The position numbers and the translations under genes were made by a program. From Ascochyta rabiei (lineage: Eukaryota; Ascomycota; Dothideomycetes; Pleosporales; Didymellaceae), in contig NC_082405.1 of assembly GCF_004011695.2 (NCBI RefSeq), positions 248,001-312,000 on the forward strand: a DNA stretch of 64,000 nucleotides, read 5' to 3'. Shown here one piece after another: positions 13,597 through 48,862 of the stretch. The notes below the pieces were generated by a model that saw only the letters and a program-made list of their open reading frames with translations, ran no database searches and was not told the DNA's origin. Each line of letters opens with the position of its first letter. The first letter of the stretch is position 1.

Positions 13597-14408
13597 GTTG
13601 GGTAACTCGAGTGCGCTGGTTCGGAACGAGCGTTGTTGCAGCACTCAGTGAGCGTACTACGCGTTTTGCGGGCAGAAAATGTACTTCGTGTTGCCACAGA
13701 GGGGTGAATTGCGGCGGAGGGGTAAAACAAAAAAGTATCCTTATCGGCTTATCAGATGTGCACAGACCACTCTGAGGATCCAGATCAGCCAATTCACTTG
13801 TCTTACCTAATTAGGCTAAGCGCCGCTCCTAAGATAGTGACGCTTCACGACAGCAGAATAAGAGGGTGCGCCAATGAAAGCTTCGTGGTCTTTAGGCTCA
13901 AGAGGGGTTCTGATCTTGTGAAGAGTGATTTTTTCCTAAAATCAGTGATGATCTTGGAACAGTGGCAGAGCTGGCAGCAAATCGTTCCACAAATAGAGCT
14001 TCATGCATACCTTTTTTTTGACCAATGGCTCAAACTGATATCGAGCAGCCAGTGATTTGTTTTACGATTGCCACGCGTAGAGCTTCCGCATAGCACGACG
14101 TTCGTCTTTCTTGGTAAAACAGGCGTTTCCAAGATCTACTCATACTTGTAAGACGAATTTCCTTGTGGCGATTTTATCTAGCGTTTTGGCAGCTGTCGCC
14201 CACTTCTCTTCTCGAGATGTCGCCACAGCTGCAGGACATGCATAGCGCTGTGGTTTCTCACAGGAATTCTATGTGTCAGCGAGGAATAAGATGGAAGTCT
14301 AAGATAGAGTGGATGTTTTTTATGTCAATATGCATTCTCAGTAGCCCGAGAACATTCTCTTAACCCCAAGTATTCTTTTCACAGGTACAAAGCCACATCA
14401 TCTCCGTA
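13597..14408. other. Intergenic, RIO1 promoter side
   Basis: Contains the RIO1 promoter. One ATCWGATAA-type GATA motif is present at 13749-13757 (as TTATCAGAT). Nothing else gene-like was seen. Confidence 0.5.
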
Positions 14409-16430: not shown

Positions 16431-18074
16431 TTACAGCTGCTCTAGATCGAAGCTTTTCACCGTAACCTTCCCACCCAGAGCTTTGGTCGCAAAGTTGAAT
16501 ACCCCAAAACGATACCCAGTAAAGAACTGCCACGTATTGGCCATTGAGAATGGTCCGCCAAGCTGAGTGAAGGATTCACCGTCTGTGCTGTACCAGAACG
16601 TAGCTTCTCTTACAGCTGTTGTGCTAGAGAAAGCTGGTGTTATGTCAGCTTCGATACGCAGCCAGACTTCAGTCACGTTGGGAGCAAGCACTGGGCCAGT
16701 TGCAGAAATGGTGCCGGTGGAATTCGTCACCCAATTCGTGCCCAAGGTCAGCTCATCGACCATGACGAGCGAGGATGTGTTGCCGGATTTAAGGATCCCA
16801 ATGTAAGCCGCAATGTCTCGGAATAACACTGCACCTGTGCGGTCTCCATCCCTGAGTCCACTCACATCGATTCTGAATGTGCCGGCAGACTTCGGCCCAG
16901 GTATACGTCTGGTCAACGTATTACGTGCTGTAAATAAATCATCGGTAACAGTAGCCGTCTGCAGTTGCAGACCTTTGTCGAGAGACCAGGCACTATCGTC
17001 GGGATTGTGATTCCACTCCCACTCATGGCTCAGCGAAGAGCCATGGAAGGAGTCCACTCCCGTTGTTGCCGGTACAGTCTTGTTGGTATGCACAGGGATG
17101 GGGTACGTCTTGCCCCACTCATTGTTCACACGGACTACCTGCGGCCAGCCATCTTCCGTCCAGGTCAGAGGAGCGACTACAGGAATGCGGCCTCCGGGGT
17201 AAGCATCCAAAAACGCAACATAGTACCACTGACCATCTTTCGTGCTGACGATGCCGCCTTGGTGCGCGTTACCAGCGCTTGAGAGCGGGCCCTCGATGCT
17301 GTCGACCAAAACCCGGCGTTCGTACGGGCCCCAGACATTGTCAGATTTGAGAACATACTCATCATCTGCAGGCTTGGTCACCCAAATGTAGTACGTTCCA
17401 TTAATCTTGTACATCCGTGACCCTTCAATGTATACTTCGTCGGGACTAGTATACACTGGCTCGGTCTTGACTTCTGCCGTTCCGTCCGCGTTGAGTTGTG
17501 CGACGTTGATGGTCGTCTTACCATACGCCATGTACATGGTGTCATCGTCGTCTATCAGTAGGCCATTGTCATAATAGCATCGAGGAAGAGTGCCTTGGGA
17601 GGTCCAGTTCCAGTGCTCGACCTCGCCGTTGTTTGCCGCCGCGTTCGTGCCGCTCGCCGTCCATACGTACGTTGGACCATCTGCGATACATCCCATCCAA
17701 TAGAAGGTATCAGTGGACTCTCGATACTGAAGTGTGCTTGCCCAGATGCCTTGTACATAAGCTCTGTCCGTGGCATTGTTCAGATCGTATCTGGGCCCGA
17801 AGTTCAGGCGTGGCACGCTGTGAGAAACTGGTGCCCAGTTAACTAGATCGTATGACTTTAGCACTGGCGCGCCTGGCGAAAAGGCGAAGGTCGAGGAGGA
17901 GTAATAGAACACGTCACCAACGCGGAAAACATCCAGGTCTGGGTAGTCTTGCCAAATCACAGGGTTTTCGAATGTCTCTGCACGCGACCTTAGTGATCCA
18001 AAGGGGCTGCTACCTGAGACAACAGCCATCAACAAAGCAAGGCCTGCTCCTATCGTGCGTAAATTGAGGTGCAT
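16431..18074 (-). CDS. Secreted GH43 beta-xylosidase/alpha-L-arabinofuranosidase
   Basis: Single exon, 547 aa. A signal peptide covers about residues 1-22. The five-bladed propeller of GH43 follows: the Asp base lies in the NPVIWQDYPDLDVFRVGD block (about residues 38-54), the pKa-modulating Asp in the DNGLLIDDD block, and the Glu acid in the VYIEGSRMYK block. A C-terminal beta-sandwich (about residues 340-547, FHGSSLSHEWEWNHNP onward) resembles the GH43_C2 accessory domain of xylosidases. Several N-glycosylation sequons are present. It should release xylose or arabinose from xylan side chains outside the cell; the exact subfamily cannot be settled by eye. First gene of the hemicellulase block. 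Confidence 0.88.
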   Translation of the reverse strand: MHLNLRTIGAGLALLMAVVSGSSPFGSLRSRAETFENPVIWQDYPDLDVFRVGDVFYYSSSTFAFSPGAPVLKSYDLVNWAPVSHSVPRLNFGPRYDLNNATDRAYVQGIWASTLQYRESTDTFYWMGCIADGPTYVWTASGTNAAANNGEVEHWNWTSQGTLPRCYYDNGLLIDDDDTMYMAYGKTTINVAQLNADGTAEVKTEPVYTSPDEVYIEGSRMYKINGTYYIWVTKPADDEYVLKSDNVWGPYERRVLVDSIEGPLSSAGNAHQGGIVSTKDGQWYYVAFLDAYPGGRIPVVAPLTWTEDGWPQVVRVNNEWGKTYPIPVHTNKTVPATTGVDSFHGSSLSHEWEWNHNPDDSAWSLDKGLQLQTATVTDDLFTARNTLTRRIPGPKSAGTFRIDVSGLRDGDRTGAVLFRDIAAYIGILKSGNTSSLVMVDELTLGTNWVTNSTGTISATGPVLAPNVTEVWLRIEADITPAFSSTTAVREATFWYSTDGESFTQLGGPFSMANTWQFFTGYRFGVFNFATKALGGKVTVKSFDLEQL

Positions 18075-18472
18075 TTTGCCTGTTCGTTCTGGTTTGCTGC
18101 AATTACAACTTGGTGGAGAAATTGCGAACGGAATGAAACATTGAAGATACTTGGTTGTGAAGCTATTCGCGTCAGCTATTCCGGTTCTACAGCCGTTTCT
18201 GCATAGTAGCTTTTACACCACGAACCCCAACACATGACTTCGTATGGCGAAGCTGGGGTTGATCGACATGCTTACTCAATTCGCCGCAGGTCCGCAGCCC
18301 TTGATTGGCGCAGTAACGCAACAATTTCTCCGGTCACAAGTCATCGCGAGGGGTAGAACTTGGCACCGCTACGTGCATGACGATGCTCGGTCAGTCTCCG
18401 TGACAACTGCGCGCGTTCGCCGATGGTTTTGACGATATGGCAGACCTGACGACGATGCGAAGCACGGATGCG

Positions 18473-18483
18473 GCTGGTAGTTG
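18473..18483 (+). repeat. Left copy of 11-bp target site duplication
   Basis: GCTGGTAGTTG directly abuts the left inverted terminus. An identical copy lies at 18840-18850. Confidence 0.85.
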
Positions 18484-18839
18484 AGGATACACTTGAGCTG
18501 ACCAACGCTAAAGCTGACCTGACCACCGACTCACTGACTTAGTCCAAGCAACACGCAAGAACACTAAAATTAAAATCCCTGCAGCTACTACACTCTATAA
18601 TAATAAAATATAATAAATTCTAGATAACCCTAACCTAAAAATAACCCTAACCTTAAGCTAACTCTGACCTTAAGCTAACTCTAACCTTCAACTAACTCTA
18701 ACCCTAAGATTTTGTTATAAATATAAATCCTGTTTATGTTATCTTCTAAATAGGTTTAGAAGATAGTGCCTAGAGTTGGTTAGGTGGAGCTGCTAAGGTA
18801 AGGTGGAGCTCTTAGCGTTGGTCAGCTCAAGCGTGTCCT
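18484..18839. mobile_element. Mutator-like MITE (356 bp, non-autonomous)
   Basis: The two ends are inverted repeats of about 28 bp (18484-18511 and the reverse complement of 18812-18839). They match except for two transitions and share the core TTGAGCTGACCAACGCTAA. The element is flanked by a perfect 11-bp direct repeat. Duplications of 9-11 bp are characteristic of Mutator-like (MULE) transposons. There is no internal coding capacity. The AT-rich core (18600-18750) contains degenerate TAACCCTAACC and TAACTCTAACC units. One terminus mismatch is C to T in a CpA context, compatible with RIP. Confidence 0.85.
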
Positions 18840-18850
18840 GCTGGTAGTTG
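18840..18850 (+). repeat. Right copy of 11-bp target site duplication
   Basis: GCTGGTAGTTG, identical to 18473-18483, directly after the right inverted terminus. Confidence 0.85.
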
Positions 18851-19595
18851 GGGTTGTCCTGAGCCGCGCTTTCCCGCCCCGCTATCGGGGATCTCTCGGT
18901 ATTTCGTTCACTGACAACGTCGCTCTCTCGGCTACCCATCTCTACACAGTAAGCACACTCTGCGAGGCTCCGTTAGTGCATACGGAAACCCAAAGGGGTT
19001 TTACGTATTGAGAAGGATGCAATCAAAGTCATTGTGGGCAAACAGGCTGGACGTCAAGGTCGCTGCCTGTCCAGATGAGGTTGATATTGGGTGTGGGAGA
19101 GGCGTCCAGTCCGGCTACGGAAGAAGGCGCTCGGTATCCACAATCTGCCCCAGCCCTACTTCTTAGCCCGGATTCTTTCACAACGTCTCCTGATCGGAAG
19201 GTTGCGCGCTGAGATTTGTGAGTCGAGGAAAATAGCAGGATACACTGTCAAAGCTGCCTAGTACGAATGCATTCGTCCGCGTCGGTGCCTGTTACTTGCG
19301 AATTCGCGAATCGACTGCGCATGTGCACGGTTCGAACAATCGAGTGCAAAAAGCAGTGTAAGATTCCATCATTTTGTGCCCATCGATTATGAATCGTATA
19401 CTGATATGTCAGCCGGATACAGAGAAAGCCCCGAAACCAGCAATGTTCCAATCATGCTCAGCCACGCTCACCACCATGTATAAATGCCGTAGTGTGATGG
19501 GCAGATTTCTATAAGTGCCGTCTCTTGACCACCGACTTCAAGCAAGAATCTGTCAGCACATCACTATACCGAAGTTGCCGATATTTCAGGCCATC

Positions 19596-20841
19596 ATGGA
19601 GAATTTCGAGGCGTTCCTGGAAAATGCAACCTCAAAAGCATCCAATGTTATACCAGGTGCAGTGCTAGCCGTTGTAGACAAAAACGGTACGTTACCAGTA
19701 ACATCGCTGATTGAGTTGACCAAGACTGATCTGCGCAGGGAACTACATCTACAAAAAGGTCTCAGGAGCCAACGGTGTTCACAAGGATGCTCAACCTCTC
19801 GAGTTCGATCAGACTTATTTCATTGCATCTTGCACGAAACTTGTGACTACAATTGCAGCACTGCAGCTGGTGGAAAGCGGCCTCGTCACGTTAGAAGAGC
19901 CCCTGGACCGCCATCTGCCCGAGCTCGCATCTCAGCCCATCGTTACACGGACGCAGCATGGCCAGCTCGAGTATCACCAGGCCACTGTTCCAATCACTCT
20001 ACGACATCTCATCACTCATTCTAGTGGGACGACTTACGAGTGGCTTGATCCTACGTTGCATGCATGGCGCGCATCCCGAGGAGAAGCCCCAGCCTTGGTT
20101 GTCGATGGCGACGTTGCAAAAGGCTACGCTGTTCCTCGAACATTTGAGTCAGGTACTAGCTGGAACTACAGCGGTGGGCTTGACTGGACTAGTCTGCTCG
20201 TTGAGCGTCTCACAGGCACAACGTTCGAAGCATACGTCGAGGAAAATATCGCTAAGCCGCTTTGTATTCAGACATTCACCTGGCATCTGTCGCACAAATT
20301 GTATGTCGCAGAGAAACGCATGCGCGTTTCAACACGCAAGGTGGATGGCACATTGGAAGATGGGCCAAACCCGTTCTGGCCTGAGCCAGTAAAGGAGGGC
20401 GGTGGCGCGGGCATGTACTCCAACGTACATGACTTTACGAGGGTCTTAGCAGATCTCTTGAAAGATTCACCGGTGCTTCTCAAGAAGTCCTCAGTTGATG
20501 AGATGTTCACCCCACAATTCACGCCTGGAAGCTCAGCTCTCCGGGACCTACACGCTAACGGTGCGGTTTACCAATGTACACTCGATGACTCCATGGAGGG
20601 CGTTTTCGCTAACCAAGGGCTCGGTGGGCTTCTAGTGAAGAAAGACGTGAACAGAGAAAACTACTTCAGACCAGCAGAGACGTTGTCGTGGTCTGGGTTG
20701 CCAAACTTGGCTTGGAGTGTCAATCGCGAGCGTGGCCTGGCGACTTTCTTCGCAACGCAAGTCGCACCCTGGGCGGACCGCAAGACTTGGGATGTCATCG
20801 CTAGATTTGAAACAGCGACCTGGAGAAATCTTTCAGCATAG
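19596..20841 (+). CDS. Beta-lactamase-fold serine hydrolase/transesterase (LovD-like)
   Basis: Exons 19596-19686 and 19739-20841 (intron 52 bp, GTACGT...CGCAG) encode 397 aa. The fold family is class C beta-lactamase/esterase. The nucleophile motif SxxK is ASCTK near residue 67, the Tyr motif is WNYSGG near 180, and a GLGG segment near the C-terminus takes the place of the KTG strand. There is no signal peptide, so it is probably cytosolic, unlike its secreted neighbours. Fungal members include acyltransferases of polyketide pathways (LovD/MlcH) and esterases; no polyketide synthase is nearby, so a detoxifying esterase is as likely. The substrate is unknown. Confidence 0.82.
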
Positions 20842-21678
20842 GATATCATAGCAATGGAGGCATACATAGCACGTGGAATGGAAAAGGTGTTTTAGTATTC
20901 CAGACGTGTACTGCAACTCGATCGATCCGCAATAATCCATCCTGTGCATACACGGGATGTTCGCGCTCTTGACAAAACTCGTAAATTTGCTCTAGTCTCG
21001 GACAAACTACATTTAAAGATTACAGCAGAGGCACTATAAATAATGGGCGCCTTTGACTGGTGGATACCAAGGTACTACCTAGCCGAGAAAGGGAGGGGTC
21101 ATCTTATCGTGATCATTTAACGGCAAGCCGCGATCGCCAGGCCCTTGTCTTCAATAAGCTCGCCTTGGCAAAGCTTATATCCCTGGTGAAAGATGGTTGC
21201 GGAGCATCATACCGGGATACCAGCACTAAGCTTCGTAAAATTTGTCCGCGTTCAATCCAGCCCAAGCACCTTGTCGGTCTTCCGCCGAGCGCACCCCGCA
21301 AAAGTCACTCGCGATTTAGACCATCTTGCTCACATGAGCAGGAGGAAAGTGTTCGTACATGGTACCATTTCCGCCAGTACGAGATTGGTCCTCATGGTCC
21401 CCGCAATTCACAGTTCCGAGACTCACCGACGTGGAATCTTGGGCCTCGTACTCGAATTCCTTGGTCACAGGGGCGCGACGCTCGTGTTAGTTGGAAGGGA
21501 ATATTGCTCGTACATCGAGGCGTAGCCTCCTTCTGGCGGACCTAGAGTCCTAGACGTATTCGAAGATCGGATGAGAAAACTATAAAGGGAAATGCTCGTT
21601 ACCTTTCGCACAGCCAGCAAGCCTTGTGCAGACAATCCGAAAAGGTGACAGCCGATGCCATCACTGCTACACCGAGCC
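20842..21678. other. Intergenic upstream of abfB
   Basis: Contains the promoter of the GH54 gene. An open frame of 161 codons (21060-21545) has no signal peptide, domain or composition typical of a gene and was not accepted. Confidence 0.5.
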
Positions 21679-23199
21679 ATGCCTTCACAATCAAGCTACC
21701 TACGTCCTGGCGTCCTTGCCCTTGGGTTGGCTGCTACCAGCTCGTTCGTCGCTGCCGCACCATGCGACATCTATGCCTCTGGTAATACACCCTGCATTGC
21801 CGCACACAGTACCACCCGCGCCTTGTACAGTGCCTACACTGGAGCACTTTATCAAGTCAAGCGTGGTTCTGACAACACAACGATTAATATCGCGCCGAAG
21901 TCTGCTGGTAGTGTTGCCAATGCTGCCGCTCAAGACACCTTCTGCTCCGGTACAACTTGCCTCATTACGATTGTCTATGACCAATCTGGCCGCGAGAACC
22001 ACCTCACCCAAGCTCCACCTGGCGGCTTTAACGGCCCAGAATCCAAAGGTTACGACAACCTCGCTGGAGCGATAGGTGCGCCTGTTACTTTGAACGGACA
22101 GAAAGCGTACGGTGTTTTTGTCTCGCCCGGCACAGGCTACCGCAACAATAAAGTAAGTGGCTCTGCCACTGGAGACGCAGCGCAGGGTATGTACGCTGTC
22201 CTCGACGGCACTCACTACAATGGCGCTTGCTGCTTCGACTACGGCAATGCCGAAACCAACAACCTCGACACCGGTGATGGCCATATGGAGGCTATCTATT
22301 ACGGCGATAGTACCGGCTGGGGTAGTGGTGCTGGCAGCGGTCCGTGGATCATGGCTGACCTTGAGAATGGCCTGTTCTCTGGCCAAGGCGCGAAGAAGAA
22401 CACTGGTAATCCATCCATCACCTCCCGCTTCGTCACTGCTGTCATCAAAGGAGGACCGGGCAAGTGGGCTATTCGTGGTGGTAACGGCGCAACCGGAGCA
22501 TTGTCGACATTCTACAGTGGCGCACGCCCAAGCGGCTCCGGCTACAACCCCATGCATAAGGAAGGTGCCATCGTTCTTGGTATTGGCGGTGACAACAGCA
22601 ACGGCGCTCAAGGTACCTTTTACGAGGGTGTGATGACCAGCGGCTACCCGACCGATGCCACTGAGAACTCGGTACAAGCCAATATTGTAGCAGCCAAGTA
22701 CGCTACCACCTCCTTGGTCAGTGGCCCAGCGTACACCGTAGGTGATTCTGTATCCTTCAAGGCTACCACAGCTGGATACACAAACCGCTATCTTGCCCAT
22801 ACCGGAGCAACAGTCAACATCCAAGTTGTCTCATCGTCTAGCACCACCACCCTGAAGCAAGCTGCCAGCTGGATTATTCGTGCTGGTCTTGGCAACAGTG
22901 GCTGTTACTCGTTCGAATCTAAAGACACTGCCGGAAGCTTCATCCGACACTTCAATTTTGCGCTGCATGTTGCCGCCAACGACGGCTCCAAGGCTTTCAA
23001 GGAAGATGCCACTTTCTGTCCGCAGAGTGGCCTCAGTGGCAGCGGTTCGTCGCTACGTGCTTGGGGATATCCTACACGATGGATTCGCCATTACCTCAAC
23101 AGTGGGTACATTGCAAGCAACGGTGGTGTTCATGGCTTCGACGCGGCTGCCTCATTCAACGCCGATGCGACATGGGCCACCAGCACTGGACTTGCTTAG
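21679..23199 (+). CDS. abfB: Secreted GH54 alpha-L-arabinofuranosidase with CBM42
   Basis: Single exon, 506 aa from MPSQSSYLRPG; an in-frame ATG 24 bp upstream is less likely. The signal peptide ends at the VAAAPCDIYASG junction, the classic AbfB mature start. The GH54 catalytic domain (about residues 27-340) contains the nucleophile Glu in the MADLENGLFSGQ block and the acid Asp in the IGGDNSNGAQGTFYEG block. The CCFDYGNAE segment contains the adjacent cysteines of the family's vicinal disulfide. The C-terminal ~160 residues are the CBM42 beta-trefoil that binds arabinose branches (SLRAWGYPTRWIRH and related repeats). It removes arabinose side chains from arabinoxylan and arabinan. Confidence 0.95.
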   Translation: MPSQSSYLRPGVLALGLAATSSFVAAAPCDIYASGNTPCIAAHSTTRALYSAYTGALYQVKRGSDNTTINIAPKSAGSVANAAAQDTFCSGTTCLITIVYDQSGRENHLTQAPPGGFNGPESKGYDNLAGAIGAPVTLNGQKAYGVFVSPGTGYRNNKVSGSATGDAAQGMYAVLDGTHYNGACCFDYGNAETNNLDTGDGHMEAIYYGDSTGWGSGAGSGPWIMADLENGLFSGQGAKKNTGNPSITSRFVTAVIKGGPGKWAIRGGNGATGALSTFYSGARPSGSGYNPMHKEGAIVLGIGGDNSNGAQGTFYEGVMTSGYPTDATENSVQANIVAAKYATTSLVSGPAYTVGDSVSFKATTAGYTNRYLAHTGATVNIQVVSSSSTTTLKQAASWIIRAGLGNSGCYSFESKDTAGSFIRHFNFALHVAANDGSKAFKEDATFCPQSGLSGSGSSLRAWGYPTRWIRHYLNSGYIASNGGVHGFDAAASFNADATWATSTGLA

Positions 23200-38964: not shown

Positions 38965-41367
38965 CTAGACCCTGTTCTGGCTAGCCTCCTCTTCGGTCTC
39001 GTTCTCCAGCTCCCTCTCAATCTCGCCTTCTTCAGTAGGCCTGGGGTTCTTGACACTTTGAGTGTCGCCCTCACCTCCACTCATCTGCCACTCCATGAGT
39101 TTGCTGAATGCACCCTCAGGGTTGGAAGAAAGCTCCTTGTAGGATCCCTCTTCGGCAACCTGACCATCGGCGTTGATGCAGATGATGCGGTCGGAGCGCT
39201 TGATGGTCGATAAACGATGCGCAATGCTGATTGTAGTGTTGTTTTCAGCCAGCAGCTTTCCAAGAGCTTGGTTGACAAGCGTTTCCGACTCAGCGTCCAA
39301 GGCACTCGTAGCTTCGTCAAGAATGAGAATATCGGGCTTTTTGATCAGCGCACGTGCAATGGCGATACGCTGCTTCTGACCACCAGAAAGTTGTGTGCCG
39401 CGTGCACCAACGTGTGTTTCAAGGCCGTCAGGCTACTCTACGTTAGCTGTGATACTTGGAAAGGGAATCGCTGCACTTACAAAATCGCTGATAAATTGGC
39501 AGTTGGCCTTTCGGGCTGCTGCCACGATCTCAGCGCGGGTCGCCTGAGGCGCGCCGTACGCAATGTTCTCTGCAATGGTACCTGAGAACAGTACTGGCTC
39601 TTGCCCAACGAAACCAATCTTCCGCCTCAATTGTTTGGCGTTCAGTGCAGTGATGTCGCGGCCATCAATGGTGATGGTCCCAGCTGTGGGTACGTAGAAG
39701 CGGAGCAGCAGGCTTGCAACGGTTGACTTCCCAGCTCCACTTGGCGCAACAATTGCGACGTTGGTGCCCTGGTCAATCTTGAAGCTGATGTCCTTGAAGA
39801 TGCCGACTGCTGGTCTCGTTGGGTAGGCAAATGATACGTTCTTGAACTCGATCGGCCCGCGCGCAGACCTGACAGCCTCGCCTTTGGTTGGCGAGATTGT
39901 AGGCTGGCGATCCTGGAGCTCGAAGAGACGACTGGCGGCACCTACACCCTTCATCATCTCGCCATAGAAGCCCGACAGACCAACCATGCTAGACCCAGCG
40001 TATGCAGTATACATGAGGAAGGACGAGAGTTCACCGATAGAGATGACTCCGCTCTTGACCATGCCGGCTCCAACGTACAAGATAGCAATGATCGTCAGGT
40101 TACCCATGAGTCCAGTACTACCGTAGAAACCTGCAGCCACCACAGCTTCCTTCTTTCCGAGCTGGAATATTCTCTTGATTTGGCGGTTGTAGCGTGCAGC
40201 TTCTTGGACTTCTCCGACGAAAGCCTGACTGGTCCTGACATTGCCAAGGCGCTCTTCAGCGATCTTGGTAAGGGTACCAAGGTTCTTTTGAATCTTACGA
40301 CTCAGAGTTCGCAGAGATCGACCGGAGAGGAAGGCAACTACAGCAACGGGAGGACCAATCAAAGCTAGAATACCGGTAAGCTTGAGACTCACGTAGCCCA
40401 TCATGACAAAACCGGCAGCACCGCTTACAAGCGAGCGAAGGCCGTCAGACAAGTTTTGCGTAATGCTCTTTCCGACGATGATCGTGTCCGAGCCGAGGCG
40501 GGAGATGAGATCACCAACACGGTTGGCGTCAAAGAATTCGGCGTTCTGGACAAAGGTCTTGCGGTACAGCTGGGATCGCAGGCGAGCGACGATGCGTTCA
40601 CCGACGATTCGCAGAATGACGATACGGCCAAAGTTTGCCGCCGCACCTGCGCACAGCACTGAGGCCAGCGCAATGTAGAATGTCGTCATGTCCATACCGA
40701 AGAGCAGACCATCAGTCTTCTCGGCTTGGGTAGCAGCGTCCAGGATTCGTCCAATAGAGAAGGGAATTGACATGGAGATGGCGGAAGAGAACAGGAGGAA
40801 GACAAACGCCCATGAGAGGGTGCCCATCTCTGGCCTGGCGATCTTGATCAACCGCCATATCTCCCCCATACCGCCGCTTGCCTTTGAGCTACCCTCTTTG
40901 CTCAGCTTTGCGCTTAGGTTGACTTGTCGCGCTGCCGTTGCTTTCTCCGACTTGACGAAACCCTGGGACTCCTCAGGCTCTCCGTCGTTCTCTTCCAGGT
41001 CTACTGCGCCTTTCTCCTCCATCTCCTTCTTGTACGACTTGCGCTGTCTTGTTGGCGTCTTGACCTGAGCTTCGGCCAGGGTCCTCGAGGCTGTAAGCAT
41101 GCGCATAGGCTGCTGGAAGACATTGCGACGCGTGGCGCCTACTGGCGCGAATCGCAAGGCGGCCGAAGAGGGGAATAGTGATGACGCACATCTGCTCGCG
41201 CATCGTGCTTGTGGAGTGGCGATGTGTGCGGGCGTCGGCTTCGTATTCAATGCTCTCGACAGCACCGATATGGGCGAAGTCGTCGTTATGCGTGGCGGCT
41301 GTAGCGAGGAGAACAAAGGTCCAGGGCCATGCCAGGCCTTGGCCACGAAAGCCGCTGTTCCGCGCAT
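38965..41367 (-). CDS. MDL1: Mitochondrial ABC transporter, Mdl1/ABCB10 type
   Basis: Exons 41367-39481 and 39432-38965 (intron 48 bp, GTAAGT...GTAG, phase 0) give 784 aa. A long Arg/Ser/Ala-rich leader (residues 1-130) fits mitochondrial import. The six-helix membrane domain covers about 180-470. The nucleotide-binding domain has Walker [10 protein letters not shown] near residue 540 (first Gly replaced by Ala), Q-loop [10 protein letters not shown], signature LSGGQKQR, Walker [13 protein letters not shown] and H-loop IAHRLSTI. A half-transporter, so it acts as a dimer in the inner membrane. Yeast Mdl1 exports peptides; animal ABCB10 supports heme synthesis. The GATA-motif-rich intergenic region lies upstream. 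Confidence 0.92.
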
Positions 41368-41990
41368 CGTGTCGCGGGGTAGACGGGCTGTCTACCTAAA
41401 TCTGAACGTGAATTGGCACACTATGGAAGCATTCGACATGGCGGTAGGTTGGCTGTAAGGACGATGACAGCTCGAAAAGTTCCACCTCGGTGGTGACGAA
41501 GGGACTCGGGAGATGGAAGCGCGGGCCACGTGAATCTCCGATTGGTAGACCGATGGCGCGAGATGACCAACTTCAACACGTCAACACTACTCTCCAAGCG
41601 AGTTACTTGGAGTATTGTAGTGTCACTCATGAATCGTAGTCAAGCTTCGTGGCTCCTTGCTCATATCGACTCACGCGTAGGAAGAGGCCAAAACGATTGT
41701 GCAATGCAGACAAAGTGCACGACTTTCTATCCTTCATACACTGTTTTGATTCAGACCTAGTGATCACGGTGCCTACACAGCCAGCAATGCGCGCATCAGC
41801 GGCGCATGCTTACATGGACTGTCTGGTTGATACAGGCTGGAAAGGCTGGAAAGGCATGTCTCTTTTGAATCTTCCACCAGTTCTGATTGAATACAGGCCG
41901 GAGAGAATTTATTCATTCCAACCAGTCACACGGCAGAAAAAGGCCTATATAACGTGGCGAAGAAAACAGGTACATGTGCGTACAAATGCT

Positions 41991-42108
41991 CTTTTTCTTT
42001 TCTTTTCTTTTCTTTTCTTTTCTTTTCTTTTCTTTTCTTTTCTTTTCTTTTCTTTTCTTTTCTTTTCTTTTCTTTTCTTTTCTTTTCTTTTCTTTTCTTT
42101 TTCTTTTC
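41991..42108 (+). repeat. (TTTTC)n pentanucleotide microsatellite
   Basis: About 22 nearly perfect TTTTC units, a pure polypyrimidine run of about 118 bp. Confidence 0.95.
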
Positions 42109-42134
42109 AACTACGACACAACTAGCCAAGAACG

Positions 42135-42233
42135 ATCAGATAAGAGACCGTAGGTCAAGGGGCGGGCCAACCAAGAGGCAATACCGTCCAAGGACGCTAG
42201 CAGATTTTATCAGATGGGCAGCCCATCTGATAA
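42135..42233. promoter_or_regulatory. Three SreA-type GATA motifs with a 27-bp palindrome
   Basis: ATCAGATAA at 42135-42143, TTATCAGAT at 42207-42215 and ATCTGATAA at 42225-42233 all match ATCWGATAA, the consensus of the iron-sensing GATA repressors SreA/Sre1. The last two are the arms of a perfect 13-bp inverted repeat around a single A (42207-42219 and 42221-42233). They lie 770-870 bp upstream of MDL1 and 1.3 kb upstream of the reductase. The motif match is seen; binding is inferred. Confidence 0.6.
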
Positions 42234-42748
42234 GAGCGACATCGGAGATGGCAGTCACGGATTGTGGGGTCAAAGGCAAAGCTGCGAGACAGGGGAGGGC
42301 GTTTCGATGATCTCACGAAGCGTTGGCGCTAGTCACGGCGAATGGTGTTGTTTGGTATCGGGCGTAGGTATTGTGGGTGGGGAGGTAGCTATGCTGGGGG
42401 TAGCTGTGCAGGGTGGGTTGATGGGGTGGAAGATGTTGGGCTTTACTGGATATTGTGTACAACGGTATAGATGTGTGATGCGTGCGTCTATTCGTCTGCG
42501 GCACTACAGCAGAAGTGTAGAGTACAGCAAAGCTGGATTCAGGTAATGCGAAGAGCTACCGTGGTACGCTGGACATCTGTTTGCAGTAGAGAGCCAGATC
42601 TGGAAGGGCCAGCCAGATCCCTGGACTAGGCGGCGTGCTCTGACGACGTCATGGGCTGCGGCGTCGTGTCCGTGTTGATGGATTTGCTTGACGCTGCCGC
42701 AGAGGACCTTCAGCTTCTCGAAATAGCGGCTAGCGGCCGGCTGGAGCG

Positions 42749-42838
42749 GTCAGGGTCAAGGTCAGGGTCAAGGTCAGGGTCAAGGTCAGGGTCAGGGTCA
42801 GGGTCAGGGTCAGGGTCAGGGTCAGGGTCAGGGTCAGG
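42749..42838 (+). repeat. (GGTCAG)n hexanucleotide repeat
   Basis: About 15 hexamer units, alternating GGTCAG and GGTCAA at the left and becoming uniform GGTCAG at the right. Confidence 0.95.
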
Positions 42839-43312
42839 TAGGTCCAAGAACACGCCGTTGTGCAGGACGGCTGAGGTCAGGCAACGGGTGGAAGTAGGGT
42901 GGGAAAGGCCAGGTTGGGTTCGCCCGGCGGGTGATGGTGGCCTTCGACCTGGACGGCTCGGCAGTGCAGGGCGGAGGGCGCGCCCGCTCTCCACCCTTCC
43001 TGCTTTGCCCGATGCAGAGGTGATGGTCGTTCAGGCTCGCAGAGCGGAGGGTTGGATCGGCACGGTTTTAGCAGCGCAATGCCCACGGTGCCGTCCGTCA
43101 CCACCCTGCACCCACCCTTGAGTCTTTGCCTCTTTTCCTGCCATTGCAAACACCTGCACTTGCCACTGCCTGCCAGCCACGCACCCTCTGTTCACCGTGT
43201 CGCCCCTTCACGCATTGCAGACGACAAGGCGGCTGTCCCTCTCTCGAGTCCGCGTGCCACTTGGGCGCGTGCAGCCACAGCGAGGAGGTATGTATGCACA
43301 TGTCATGCTACG

Positions 43313-43414
43313 ATCTGATAATCTGGCGACTTGGATCAGATAAGCCCTCGACGCACAACCCCGCGCACCGAGGGCTTACGGCAGCAATTGGAAATTGGAA
43401 ATTGGAAATTGGAA
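43313..43414. promoter_or_regulatory. GATA pair, inverted repeat and CCAAT array upstream of the reductase
   Basis: ATCTGATAA (43313-43321) and ATCAGATAA (43335-43343) lie 244 and 222 bp before the reductase ATG. The second overlaps a perfect 10-bp inverted repeat (TAAGCCCTCG at 43341-43350, CGAGGGCTTA at 43369-43378). Then come four tandem ATTGGAA units (43387-43414), each a CCAAT box on the minus strand. GATA plus CCAAT is the combination used by SreA and the CCAAT-binding complex with HapX in fungal iron control. Function is inferred. Confidence 0.6.
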
Positions 43415-43564
43415 ATGCAGCGCGCTGCCCTCCGCTCAATGATGGCTTCCGATTTCTGCCCAAGACCGTGCTGACCATGACGACCTCGGACAGCCCCCTG
43501 TGTCGCGTCCTCGACACGCCCATCCGCCGCCTGCCTCCGCCCACCGTCACCACCACATCCCTCC

Positions 43565-45596
43565 ATGGCTTCCTCTTCCTCGACCTCGACCGCCGCAATG
43601 CAGCACAAACTCCCCCACACAGCCACCTCCCACCCCAACGACCCCATTCCCCGGGAGCCGCGCGAGCTGCCCCAGCTCGCCCTCAAGCCGGCGCCCCCTT
43701 CCGCCCAACCCGAGCACCCGTCCCCCAAGTCGTCGGGCGAGTCGATGCTATGGAGCCAGAACAGCAGCGACGACTCCGAGGCGCCCATGACGCCCAACAC
43801 CGAGCCCGACCACGCCGTCGAGGAGCTGGTCGACAAGCTGCAGGACCTGCCCGCCGCCGCCGTCAACTTCAACGGCCAGACACGCCCTAGACGCGCCTCC
43901 ACCACGCTCATCTCAGACAGCCCGACCGACATCAGACGCATCCTCGGCGACGGCGAGACGGCCACCAAGCTCATCAGCCAGTGCTGCGGCGGCGGCTGCT
44001 GTCTGCTCAAGACCCTGCAGCCAGACACGTCGTCTTCGTCGTCTGTCCCTGTCGTCGTCCCCGACAATGTCGCCTTCAGCAGCCTCCACCTCAAGCTCGG
44101 CCCGCTTGCTCTCGACAGCGAGCTCACCGACACAACACCGCTACCGCCCCTCACCATGTCCTTCGAGCCCCTCCCCTCCAAGGACATCAAGCACGTGTCC
44201 GAGGTCCACAAGACACCGCCCAAGTTCGTCCAGCCACACCCGCCGTACGACGTCTACTCGGCCCCACTGTACCACGCCCGCGAGTTGACCAAGCCCGGCG
44301 CCGAGAAGAGGACGATCCACTTCGACATCGACGTAACGGACTACCCTGACGAGGGCGGGGTCGATTTCAAGGTCGGCGGTGCCGTCGGCATCTGCCCACC
44401 CAACGCACCGCACATGGTCGACGACATGTTTGACCTGCTCGGTGTCCCCAAGTTCCTCCGCGACAAGCCCGTCACACTCAAGACCAAGACCGGACGATGG
44501 CCTACCATCTGGGGAGAAGACCAGCCACGCGAGCTACTCACTACGCGCCGCGAGCTGCTTACCTGGTGCGTGGACATTCAGTCCAACCCACCGACCAAGA
44601 ACCTCCTCCGTGTGATGGCCGAGTACGCCGACGCACCCAACGAGAAGAAGATCCTGGAATATCTCTGCTCGGCACAGGGTCAAGCAGCCTTCTGCGACCT
44701 TCGCACCACGTCCCACCTCACTGTTCCCCAGATCCTCAGCGCCTTCCCGTCCTCGAAGCCTCCGCTACCGAGCCTCCTCTCCGTCCTCACCCAACTCATG
44801 CCACGCTTCTACTCGCTCTCCAACGACCCGCACATCTCATCCGCCCGCCCTGGTCTGCCCGGCACGCGCCGTTTGATCGAGATGGCTGTGACGATCCACG
44901 AAGCGCCTGACTGGCACGCGCCCGGCGCTACGCGAACCGGTGTTGGCAGCGGCTTCATGGAGCGCATTGCCCACCAGTTCATCACCGCCGAGAGTGAAGG
45001 TGTTGATCCCCGCAGCATCCTCGACATCCGTGTCCCCATGTTCCGTGGCCTGATGGCCAACCCACTGTCCAAGCAGTTTGGCGGCGAGGGTCCAATGGTT
45101 CTCATCGGCGCCGGTGTTGGCATGGCACCCTTCCGAGGATTTATCCTGAACAGGCTTAAGAATGCCAACTGCGCCAACAAGATCTGGCTCATCCAGGGCG
45201 TCCGCGACTCCATGTTGGATGAGCTGTACTCTGGCGAGCTGGGTGATCACGAGCGCGAGATCAAGAAGGTCGTTCAGAGCCGTAAGACGCGCGTCAGTGG
45301 TCAGACCGAGGCCAAGTACGTCCAGGACGAGGTTCGCATGCAAGCCGACATTGTGTGGTTCGTCATCAACGCACTAGACGGCCGCATCTTCGTTTGCGGA
45401 AGCAGCAAGGGTATGGGTGAGGGTGTTGAGGAGGCACTCATCGACATTACCATGCAGAAGGGCAACCTCAGCAGGGAGGAAGCTCACGAGTTCTGGGCCA
45501 ACAAGAAGAACGATGGCCAGTACATTGCCGTAAGCGTATTCCCTCGAGAGGTAAACCAAAGCTCAAGTTGCTGACATGACTCAGGAAACCTGGTAA
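43565..45596 (+). CDS. Orphan CPR-type FAD/NADPH oxidoreductase lacking a flavodoxin domain
   Basis: Exon 1 is 43565-45529 and a 12-nt terminal exon is 45585-45596, total 658 aa. Read without the intron (55 bp, GTAAGC, branch CTGACATGAC, TCAG), the protein ends in an unrelated tail. Spliced, it ends QYIAETW, the C-terminal aromatic that stacks on FAD in cytochrome P450 reductase relatives. Residues 1-220 are disordered, Ser/Pro-rich, with a CCGGGCC cluster near 140. The FR-type FAD domain follows with PRFYSLSNDP near 412, then the NADPH domain with GAGVGMAPFRGF near 515 and VCGSSKGMGEG. No FMN domain exists in the protein or just upstream. The electron acceptor is unknown. Confidence 0.85.
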
Positions 45597-46473: not shown

Positions 46474-47610
46474 CTACTCTTCATCACTGCCGCATTGTAA
46501 TGCGGCTCGATCCCGCTCAACCGCGTAGCCGGCGTGGCGAGCATCCGACAGCGCATCGAGTTCGGCTGGCGTGTACTTCCACGGGTGGTGGAACTCGGCG
46601 CCGGATCGCAGACAGCAGTCTGGGACGTACTCGCGTACCTCGATACCCGCGTGTGCGAGTGATGTGGTGACGGTGTCGTGCGTGGGCGCGGTGGCGTAGC
46701 GGTGGTATAGTGAAATTCTCGCGAGAGCGGGAAACAGCGATGTCGCCGTCGCCTCGTCCACAAGCCTTGTGGACCACGGCTCGAAACAGGTGCATCGGGC
46801 GTCTGTCAGAACTAAGGCCTCGAGACTGCGCGGAATCATGTCGCAACATGACCCCCTCGCTCTCTTGGTGGCTGCCATGTGCGGAAGACTTAGCCAGCGC
46901 AGATTGGGGAAGAACTCGGGTATCTGCGATATGCTCGACGGCCACCATATGCTGTCTTCCACCGTGCGACGGAAGTCTATGGGGAGTTCCAGCGCGGTGA
47001 GCTTGGGTCCGATTAGTGCCACGACCCAGCTCAAATCTGGACCTTCGGTCCAGTCGGGCTTTGTTGGAGCCTCGGGCTCGCTGAAGATCATGGCGTGGAA
47101 GATGGGGAAGTTGAGGAGTATGGAACCGCCAAGGTATAGCTTTTTGAGCCCTGGGACCAGTGTCAGGATAAGACTGAGTAGGAGCCCATGGTCTTTGAAA
47201 TGAGCTGCGTCCAGCGAGGCGATTATGGTGTCCTGGGTCCACTTGCGGATGGGCAGGGTTCTGAGGTGTCGCTTGCAGTGGTCCAGTACGTCTGGCTCAA
47301 GACGAGGAATAGGTACCGGATATGTCTTTGCTTCCCACGTTTCCCTGGTTTCGATTGTTAGGCTTTTGATCGTCTTTGCCAAGTTGGGATACTTGAACAA
47401 GAAGTAGAGCAGTAGGTGGGCTTTGCTGGACTGCAAGACTGGAGCTAAACAAAGCACTTCCCGCACGACTGGTGCCAATCGACGACAGGTGAGTGCTAGA
47501 TGGAGTAGATTCGGTGCAGATTCAGCGTACTCGACGCCGGCCACAAGGTATGCGGCGATATGTACTTGCAGCTCGGCAGGAAGATCTAGTAAACCACGCT
47601 GATGAACCAT
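46474..47610 (-). CDS. F-box-like protein
   Basis: Single exon, 378 aa. The N-terminal LLDLPAELQVHIAAYL with LLHLALTCRRLAPVVREVL is a fungal F-box-like motif (about residues 7-60). The rest is leucine-rich with irregular repeats (GLKKLYLGGSILLNFP, LTALELPIDF, NLRWLSLPHM), which suggests a solenoid for target binding. F-box proteins recruit substrates to SCF ubiquitin ligases, but many fungal members are uncharacterised. It is divergent from the 2EXR-like gene across 403 bp. The C-terminus is acidic (GSDEE). No specific orthologue was recognised. Confidence 0.75.
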   Translation of the reverse strand: MVHQRGLLDLPAELQVHIAAYLVAGVEYAESAPNLLHLALTCRRLAPVVREVLCLAPVLQSSKAHLLLYFLFKYPNLAKTIKSLTIETRETWEAKTYPVPIPRLEPDVLDHCKRHLRTLPIRKWTQDTIIASLDAAHFKDHGLLLSLILTLVPGLKKLYLGGSILLNFPIFHAMIFSEPEAPTKPDWTEGPDLSWVVALIGPKLTALELPIDFRRTVEDSIWWPSSISQIPEFFPNLRWLSLPHMAATKRARGSCCDMIPRSLEALVLTDARCTCFEPWSTRLVDEATATSLFPALARISLYHRYATAPTHDTVTTSLAHAGIEVREYVPDCCLRSGAEFHHPWKYTPAELDALSDARHAGYAVERDRAALQCGSDEE

Positions 47611-48013
47611 GCTAGAGAGCTTCAGTACACCCTGTGGCGTCCGATGGGGAGTACTGTGGACAGAGACAGCTCAGCCGTTGTCTTAGGTTGGGAGGAGTGG
47701 GAGCCGGTGTCGAGCAAGCTGTTTGCTCTGGTTATCCACAACAAAGCAGACATGCTGAAACAAGTGAAAGACGTCCTCGCAACACACCAGATCTCTCACA
47801 CAGCAACAAAGAAGATCTCAAGTCGAGCAATTGCGATGGTGAAACACTGCACAGTCCAAGTTTTCACACTTTGACCTAGGTCTCACAAATTCAGCGTTAC
47901 ATGTTGTTGCATCAACAAACGCTGCATCCATGTGCTTCTTCCGAGATGGAATCATCTTGATAGGTTCCTTTGCACGAGTGGTCGAATTTGTACTGGCCCT
48001 TCTACTAGCAGCT
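47611..48013. promoter_or_regulatory. Divergent promoter of F-box-like and 2EXR-like genes
   Basis: A 403-bp interval between divergent starts. An in-frame upstream ATG at 47930 could extend the plus-strand gene by 28 hydrophobic residues. Confidence 0.5.
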
Positions 48014-48862
48014 ATGAGTGCTACACACCATACTCCGAGATCTTCACCACTCCTCGCACTGCCTGCCGAGTTGCGTAATGTGATATACGGGTACGTGCTG
48101 GCGGCCTCCAAGCGCATCATTTGCGCCCAGTTTGAGATCGAAGAGGATCATGCCCACAAGTACTACGAAAAGGGTGTGCAGGTCAGAACGAGCGGCATCG
48201 GTGCGAGCCCACACAATAGCAAGGCGACCGTAGAGAGCAACCAGTTGCAACATGTATGCCGACTCCTGCGGCGCGAAACCTCGTCTTTCGTTCCCAGCAG
48301 CCACATAGTCTTCCTGCGACGATCAGATAAACACTCGATCAAGACCGCATCTGTGACGTGCAGTCGCTGGCTGGACACACTTGCGAGAAGCCACATCGAC
48401 GCGCTGCGAACAATCACCATACACGAGGGAATACCGTGGGGAGTAGCAGACCATGACTTTGCGGCCTGCAGTGGCATATTCGACCTCAACGCTGTCGAGC
48501 ATCTCGCCCGTTTCTGCTCGTCTAGTCCTCACATCCAGGTCAAGATTTACCTAGCCCGGTTCGACAAGCAGCTGAAGGGGTTTTGCAGGAGGTCGCTCAT
48601 CGGCTACATTGTGTCCATGGCCGTGCGGAAGGAAGATTGCTGCGCTGCTTACGGCTGTACTTCTGGGGAGGCGAGGGCGGTGGAGGATGCTGTGGAGAGG
48701 ATGAGTAGCGTCTGGGGCGGGTATGCAAAGGACAAGCCGCCTCTGCCGGAGAATTTGAGGCTCTTTCCTGTCGGGCAGTTTCAGTGCGATGACTGGCCGA
48801 CTAATAAAAGTAGGCCTGAGCTTCGTAGCAGGATAAAGAGATGGTATGAGGAGGGTATTTGA
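48014..48862 (+). CDS. 2EXR-like domain protein of unknown function
   Basis: Single exon, 282 aa from MSATHHTPR. The block LLALPAELRNVIYGYVL starts the 2EXR/F-box-like domain that is greatly expanded in Dothideomycetes, followed by a LQHVCRLLRRETSSFV segment in the usual place. The C-terminal half has no known domain. The alternative start at 47930 would add a hydrophobic leader and was judged a read-through of the 5' UTR. Members have no established biochemical role. An ATCWGATAA match at 48322-48330 lies inside the coding region and is probably fortuitous. Confidence 0.75.
   Translation: MSATHHTPRSSPLLALPAELRNVIYGYVLAASKRIICAQFEIEEDHAHKYYEKGVQVRTSGIGASPHNSKATVESNQLQHVCRLLRRETSSFVPSSHIVFLRRSDKHSIKTASVTCSRWLDTLARSHIDALRTITIHEGIPWGVADHDFAACSGIFDLNAVEHLARFCSSSPHIQVKIYLARFDKQLKGFCRRSLIGYIVSMAVRKEDCCAAYGCTSGEARAVEDAVERMSSVWGGYAKDKPPLPENLRLFPVGQFQCDDWPTNKSRPELRSRIKRWYEEGI

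Follow-up and report, generated by a model that had tools for sequence, protein, structure and literature searches.

What controls a pair of divergent genes in the fungus Ascochyta rabiei between which the nine-base motif ATCWGATAA occurs five times? The motif is the SreA consensus, which is read by the two-finger factor SreA (PMC10500206; PMC2610380), and a preliminary description of the locus had taken the five copies as iron-repressor sites serving both genes. The locus lies in a stretch of 64,000 nucleotides (NC_082405.1, positions 248,001 to 312,000), referred to here as the window and numbered from its first letter.

Two groups of sites between Mdl1 and an orphan reductase

All five sites are exact matches to ATCWGATAA, as had been described, and the window holds seven in total, the remaining two being at 13749 (minus strand) and 48322 (plus strand). 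The five form two groups 1.1 kb apart: a distal group, consisting of a single site and a palindrome, and a proximal group, which is a direct pair (Table 1). The distal group is 768-866 bp from the Mdl1 start codon, Mdl1 being the closer of the two genes to it. The arms of the palindrome are 13 bp long with 1 nt between them and, as two sites share this one perfect palindrome, the five cannot all be counted as independent.

The start codons of the two flanking genes are separated by 2197 bp. The genes had been named as an Mdl1/ABCB10-type transporter and an orphan FAD/NADPH reductase, and the Pfam domains and the matches to solved structures agree with both names. The Mdl1 gene has two exons (41367-39481 and 39432-38965) separated by a single intron of 48 bp, the model having been checked by translation. 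Its product contains PF00664 and PF00005, and like ABCB10 and yeast Mdl1 it is a half transporter, with human ABCB10 as its best match amongst solved structures (E 1.7e-123). The next-ranked match to it within its own genome is only 31% identical, and its N terminus, judged by eye only, resembles a mitochondrial presequence. The reductase gene also has one intron, between exons 43565-45529 and 45585-45596, and this model was likewise checked by translation. Elsewhere in the window there is a hemicellulose-degrading stretch (16434-23196), in which GH43 and arabinofuranosidase B genes flank a beta-lactamase-like gene.

Table 1. Features of the region between Mdl1 and the reductase, and loci elsewhere in the genome at which ATCWGATAA sites were considered.
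Feature	Position or locus	Strand	Evidence
Mdl1/ABCB10-type mitochondrial half ABC transporter, 784 aa	38965..41367	-	Pfam, solved-structure match, gene model
Two single CCAAT boxes (41412-41416, 41541-41545), Mdl1 sense, 45-178 bp before Mdl1 ATG	41412..41545	-	Motif search
(TTTTC)23 microsatellite between Mdl1 and distal sites	41993..42108		Tandem Repeats Finder
ATCAGATAA, distal group, 768 bp from Mdl1 ATG	42135..42143	+	Motif search
Perfect 27-bp palindrome TTATCAGATGGGC-A-GCCCATCTGATAA with two inverted sites (42207-42215 minus, 42225-42233 plus)	42207..42233		Repeat and motif search
(GGTCAG)15 repeat between both site groups	42748..42838		Tandem Repeats Finder
ATCTGATAA, proximal pair, far end 252 bp before reductase ATG	43313..43321	+	Motif search
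ATCAGATAA, proximal pair, near end 222 bp before reductase ATG	43335..43343	+	Motif search
Inverted repeat TAAGCCCTCG/CGAGGGCTTA, overlapping end of last ATCWGATAA site	43341..43378		Repeat search
4.4 tandem copies of AATTGGA, giving four minus-strand CCAAT boxes (43387-43412)	43386..43416	-	Tandem Repeats Finder
Orphan FAD/NADPH reductase, 658 aa	43565..45596	+	Pfam, solved matches, gene model
hapX, with second pair downstream at L043	L040		bZIP match
NRPS-like gene, four sites	L034		Pfam AMP-binding domain; NRPS label by eye
FTR1, divergent from multicopper oxidase-like frame (by eye)	L053/L076		
ABC gene beside SidA, 2 sites	L070/L077		
Mitoferrin-like carrier, 3 sites nearby	L039		Pfam and solved-structure search: mitochondrial carrier only
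AIF-like pyridine-nucleotide oxidoreductase, 2 sites	L035 (C12)		Pyr_redox_2
AIF-like pyridine-nucleotide oxidoreductase, 4 sites	L041/L078 (C22)		Pyr_redox_2
Loci without recognised iron gene	L033 (Nha1 C terminus), L036 and L038 (MFS), L037 (APH kinase), L002 (HEAT repeats), L044, L045		

The clustering of the sites

The genome (40.9 Mb in 23 contigs) contains 375 copies of ATCWGATAA (193 and 182 on the two strands), or roughly one in every 109 kb; the reversed motif, used as a control word, occurs 1503 times. This fourfold rarity may mean that the motif is avoided where no regulated promoter lies, or it may follow simply from the composition of the word. At the genome rate, and with uniform placement, five sites in 1209 bp would be expected 2.3e-7 times per genome. 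With the palindrome counted once the expectation for four sites in the same length is 8.4e-5, and this density was reached in 2 of 20000 simulations in which the sites were placed at random. Dinucleotide shuffles of the window gave a mean of 0.55 sites and a maximum of 3 (100 shuffles), compared with the seven seen. The earlier claim that five sites in 1.2 kb is more than chance would provide is therefore borne out by the genome rate and the random placements alike.

That the sites arose by chance or local duplication and have no regulatory role seems very improbable. The region is repetitive, with five arrays found by Tandem Repeats Finder in 41300-43600; two of the sites, being in one palindrome, possibly arose together, and one 11-mer that surrounds a site is present twice. 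Against this stand the simulations with the palindrome counted once and the return of the site at the iron genes of the genome, described below, which serve as positive controls; the only repeats reported to hold a whole site are that 11-mer and the arms of the palindrome.

Three other loci hold four sites each, within 495 bp (L034), 283 bp (L041) and 648 bp (L052), so that the density is not unique to the window, and all three are iron-type or AIF-like loci. Among the 100 of the 375 genome places that were listed (contigs C1-C4) there is no further group of at least three sites within 1.2 kb.

Iron regulators encoded in the genome

A homologue of SreA is encoded at C16:699052-699609, where two GATA fingers lie in one open frame with CPGGGRCNGTGGQQGCSGCP between them. 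In the 1.5 kb before the first finger, a span that includes part of the gene, there is no ATCWGATAA. The HapX homologue, on C18, has a bZIP domain and, scoring slightly below the Pfam cut-off, a Hap4-type motif; it also contains CGFCENGGHCVC, which agrees with the published CRR-B pattern CGFCX5CXC (PMC4232046). A pair of ATCWGATAA sites lies ahead of the frame that codes for the bZIP. We also observed a second, divergent pair, TTATCAGATCATCTGATAA, some 0.6 kb past the point where the hapX frame ends (L043, C18:775806-775824).

Recurrence of the sites at iron genes

Close pairs of sites were sought throughout the genome, in three orientations with a gap of 0-30 and in one orientation with a gap of 31-61. 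Direct pairs with the shorter gap were found at 11 places, compared with 5 for the reversed control, though the control word is four times commoner. For divergent pairs there were 2 distinct places, one of them the palindrome of the window and the other the L043 pair downstream of hapX, and for convergent pairs 2, in each case against none for the control. Direct pairs with a gap of 31-61 showed no excess by raw count (3 versus 9 for the control); all three are at iron-type or AIF-like loci.

Outside the window there are 14 close-pair loci, of which five have a recognised iron gene, two an AIF-like gene and seven neither, as judged from a single frame or a small number of frames per locus within 3 kb, a range that would miss an iron gene farther away. 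As neither kind of gene was recognised at half of these loci, a close pair in itself is no proof of an iron role. Genes of iron uptake and its regulation do recur amongst the loci with sites (Table 1), and ABC matches and a SidA-like gene lie in the region of the NRPS-like gene as well. The mitoferrin-like carrier contains EHSVMYPVDMLK and PAHAVYFASYE, which we take to be typical Mrs3/4 motifs. In A. fumigatus the Mrs4 homologue MrsA is reported to be critical in adapting to both low and high iron (PMC4922219). The sites at the two AIF-like oxidoreductases suggest that these are further, as yet unstudied, members of the iron regulon.

Some of the loci were chosen by gene family. Both FTR1 genes found have sites upstream (2 and 4), and on C7 two sites precede the best SidA match by about 0.8-1.0 kb. 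For a SidA-like gene on C9 the locus that was read has none on the upstream side and one past the other end. Three other PF13434 loci, which probably encode other oxidoreductases, comprise one with a single site (L049) and two without. The control families were mostly free of sites: none was found at any of the eight GATA-factor loci (two of which overlap at the SreA gene), nor at eight of the ten Mdl1-matched loci, some of these eight being two parts of one gene and those matched internally being liable to miss the promoter. Sites were present at the remaining two, the locus of Mdl1 and that of the ABC gene next to SidA. At 22 loci of contig C1, which mostly have a single site and include both other window sites and one 250-bp pair (L013), Pfam on the longest frames of 17 gave no recognised iron-uptake or siderophore family, the other five having frames under 150 aa or none; at L015 there is a weak rubredoxin-like match.

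Two further observations concern the pairs without a recognised iron gene. L033 (C8:1796228), near the end of an Nha1-type antiporter gene, and L036 (C13:267184), near an MFS gene, carry the identical 22-mer pair ATCTGATAAGATGATCTGATAA. At L002 (C16:1179377) two sites 22 bp apart lie beside a HEAT-repeat gene that by eye is like deoxyhypusine hydroxylase, an iron-dependent enzyme.

Could another GATA factor, a nitrogen or light regulator for example, bind the sites, so that the genes answer to a signal other than iron? The core is common to GATA factors, the genome has eight GATA-finger matches, and the seven close-pair loci without a recognised iron or AIF-like gene would fit. However, from one start codon to the other the only HGATAR matches are the five extended, SreA-form sites, generic HGATAR shows no enrichment in the window as a whole (109 seen versus a mean of 116 expected), and the same extended form recurs at the FTR1, SidA, hapX and NRPS-like loci. 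We regard another GATA factor as improbable. The assignment of the sites to an SreA-type iron repressor, made originally from the motif, is well supported within this genome by the regulator gene and by the recurrence at iron genes, though seven of the 14 other close-pair loci are without such a gene.

CCAAT boxes and other elements

The AATTGGA repeat, which the earlier description does not mention, adjoins the proximal pair, and nowhere else in the genome was an exact array of three units found. Its CCAAT boxes suggest a candidate CBC/HapX input, which might be activating or repressing. The pattern CSAATN12RWT describes a CCAAT box with the HapX submotif; it matches only within the AATTGGA tandem repeat, where the spacing matches are trivial. 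At the loci compared, CCAAT within 100 bp is only weakly commoner at paired sites (6/12 versus 5/20 loci) and the difference is not convincing. The HapX/CBC-controlled cccA promoter (PMC4232046) offers a comparison: here too a putative iron promoter contains CCAAT boxes and the genome encodes a HapX homologue bearing CRR-B, but in cccA a single CCAAT box has a HapX submotif on its 3' side, whereas here four CCAAT boxes stand in tandem.

The 10-bp inverted repeat at the end of the last site could form a small hairpin or serve another factor. A hidden gene between the two site groups was also considered and is weakly rejected: the five frames tested in 42214-43318 were all negative in a crude codon model, which had been trained on three coding stretches in the window and which also placed the frames 46477-47610 and 47930-48862 slightly below zero.

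The orphan reductase

Pfam finds only PF00667 (FAD_binding_1) and PF00175 (NAD_binding_1) in the reductase. It is the FAD/NADPH half of a diflavin reductase, with both domains, RxYS, the NADPH glycine motif and a C-terminal aromatic residue present, and with no FMN (flavodoxin) domain found by Pfam. Among solved sequences it comes nearest to CPR and methionine synthase reductase. With the FAD module of these enzymes it shares the FAD and NADPH domains, RFYS, GAGVGMAP, VCG and the C-terminal Trp; it differs from them in the FMN domain, which was not found, and in having a conserved N-terminal region with the cysteine motif CCGGGCC (residues 140-146).

Two protein searches gave 1662 and 1674 matches at E 1e-30 or better, the second, aimed at Aspergillus orthologues, having been started from one of the most distant listed matches and listing for the most part the proteins already listed by the first. 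The best 120 of each comprise 133 different proteins. Amongst these 133 listed relatives CCGGGCC is present in all, as are RxYS and VCGS, and GAG[VT]GMAP is present in 132; 64 end in TW, the rest ending differently as predicted. The closest named relatives listed, at 84-85% identity, are from Neocucurbitaria, Pyrenochaeta, Cucurbitaria, Didymella and Alternaria, with listed matches reaching 92%, and those named are about 68% identical or more where aligned. The named relatives are presumably all Dothideomycetes and, given this closeness, the invariance of the motifs is uninformative on deeper lineages. In A. rabiei the gene is single-copy (the next-ranked match is 27% identical), and scans of viral contigs and genome contigs with the reductase alignment found no relative.

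A first AlphaFold2 model, from 14 sequences, was discarded (mean pLDDT 33.9). A second, from 57 sequences of which three are pieces of other genes of the same genome, reached a mean pLDDT of 65.6. Foldseek with this moderate-confidence model placed the FAD module of methionine synthase reductase first, with a TM of 0.40 by query length, and the CPR FAD module also at the top. The region around CCGGGCC has pLDDT below 50, so that the placement of the motif relative to the FAD is unreadable.

Probable iron control of one gene or both

Taken together, the region is very likely a promoter of the SreA-repressed type, acting on the reductase through the proximal pair and on either Mdl1 or the reductase through the distal group. 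The sites, the genes of the regulators, the recurrence at iron genes and the intact motifs of the reductase are directly visible in the sequence; that SreA binds, which way the regulation runs and what the two proteins do are inferred, and either protein may handle iron or heme here. While iron is plentiful the extended GATA sites would be occupied by the SreA homologue and transcription would be off, and when iron becomes scarce this repression would lift. Control of the reductase would come from the proximal pair together with the CCAAT array next to it, CBC/HapX providing a second input, and the distal group would serve either Mdl1 or, as an element farther upstream, the reductase. The enzyme would pass electrons from NADPH through FAD to an acceptor, an activity that could be useful in low iron.

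Since the proximal pair lies by its start codon, the reductase is the likelier target and is probably switched on when iron is scarce. Mdl1, with only the farther group, is possibly under the same control, so that the earlier proposal of a jointly regulated pair stands better for the reductase than for Mdl1. There is a substantial chance, somewhat short of even, that only the reductase belongs to the iron regulon and that the distal group is its upstream element, Mdl1 being a bystander with its own promoter. The distance of the distal sites from Mdl1, with the (TTTTC)23 tract intervening, and the position of the proximal pair would fit this. A mitoferrin-like carrier with nearby sites speaks for Mdl1, mitoferrin being a partner of ABCB10 in mammals, as does the distal group lying closer to Mdl1 than to the reductase; the SidA sites of the same genome indicate that such a distance is compatible with control. 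Findings in other fungi point both ways: the F. graminearum Mdl1 mutant is reported to show no involvement in iron regulation, but yeast Mdl1 is described as linked to iron homeostasis, as is Atm1, and its overexpression as partly restoring an atm1 mutant (PMC6788720). Atm1 and Mdl1 have also been suggested to overlap in their substrates, as relayed in PMC6071951, where each species analysed has one Mdl1-like gene except yeast, which has two.

Comparison with known systems and significance

The promoter type favoured here, that of an SreA-repressed gene, is already known. The A. fumigatus SreA regulon has the same 9-mer consensus, and its targets include ftrA/fetC, sidA, hapX and siderophore NRPS and ABC genes (Schrettl 2008, PMC2610380), but amongst the described targets of this regulon of 49 genes neither Mdl1 nor a diflavin-type FAD/NADPH reductase is named in the text available (PMC2610380). 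For ABCB10/Mdl1, the link to iron homeostasis in yeast is through Atm1, and control by an SreA-type promoter is not described in the accessible sections of PMC6788720, PMC10434148 and PMC6071951; those of the Botrytis Bcmdl1 paper make no mention of SreA, GATA or heme (PMC10434148). In the open-licence literature of PubMed Central we found no description of an iron-regulated pair of Mdl1 and a reductase, and as far as that literature shows, placing the reductase, and possibly Mdl1, in such a promoter is new.

One more specific, and rather doubtful, idea is that the reductase is the missing fungal cytosolic reductase of ferri-siderophores (or of iron-sulphur): a single-component NADPH/FAD enzyme repressed by SreA, in which CCGGGCC passes electrons to iron or binds it, with a co-regulated Mdl1 supporting the mitochondrial side. 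If true, such a reductase would free iron from those ferric siderophores that are not opened by hydrolysis. More generally, a conserved NADPH/FAD reductase with iron-repressor sites is a concrete new candidate for an iron enzyme. Mammalian ABCB10 is under the control of GATA-1 and, if Mdl1 were also controlled through the sites described here, an ABCB10-type mitochondrial transporter would be tied to the fungal iron regulon in parallel with its mammalian counterpart.
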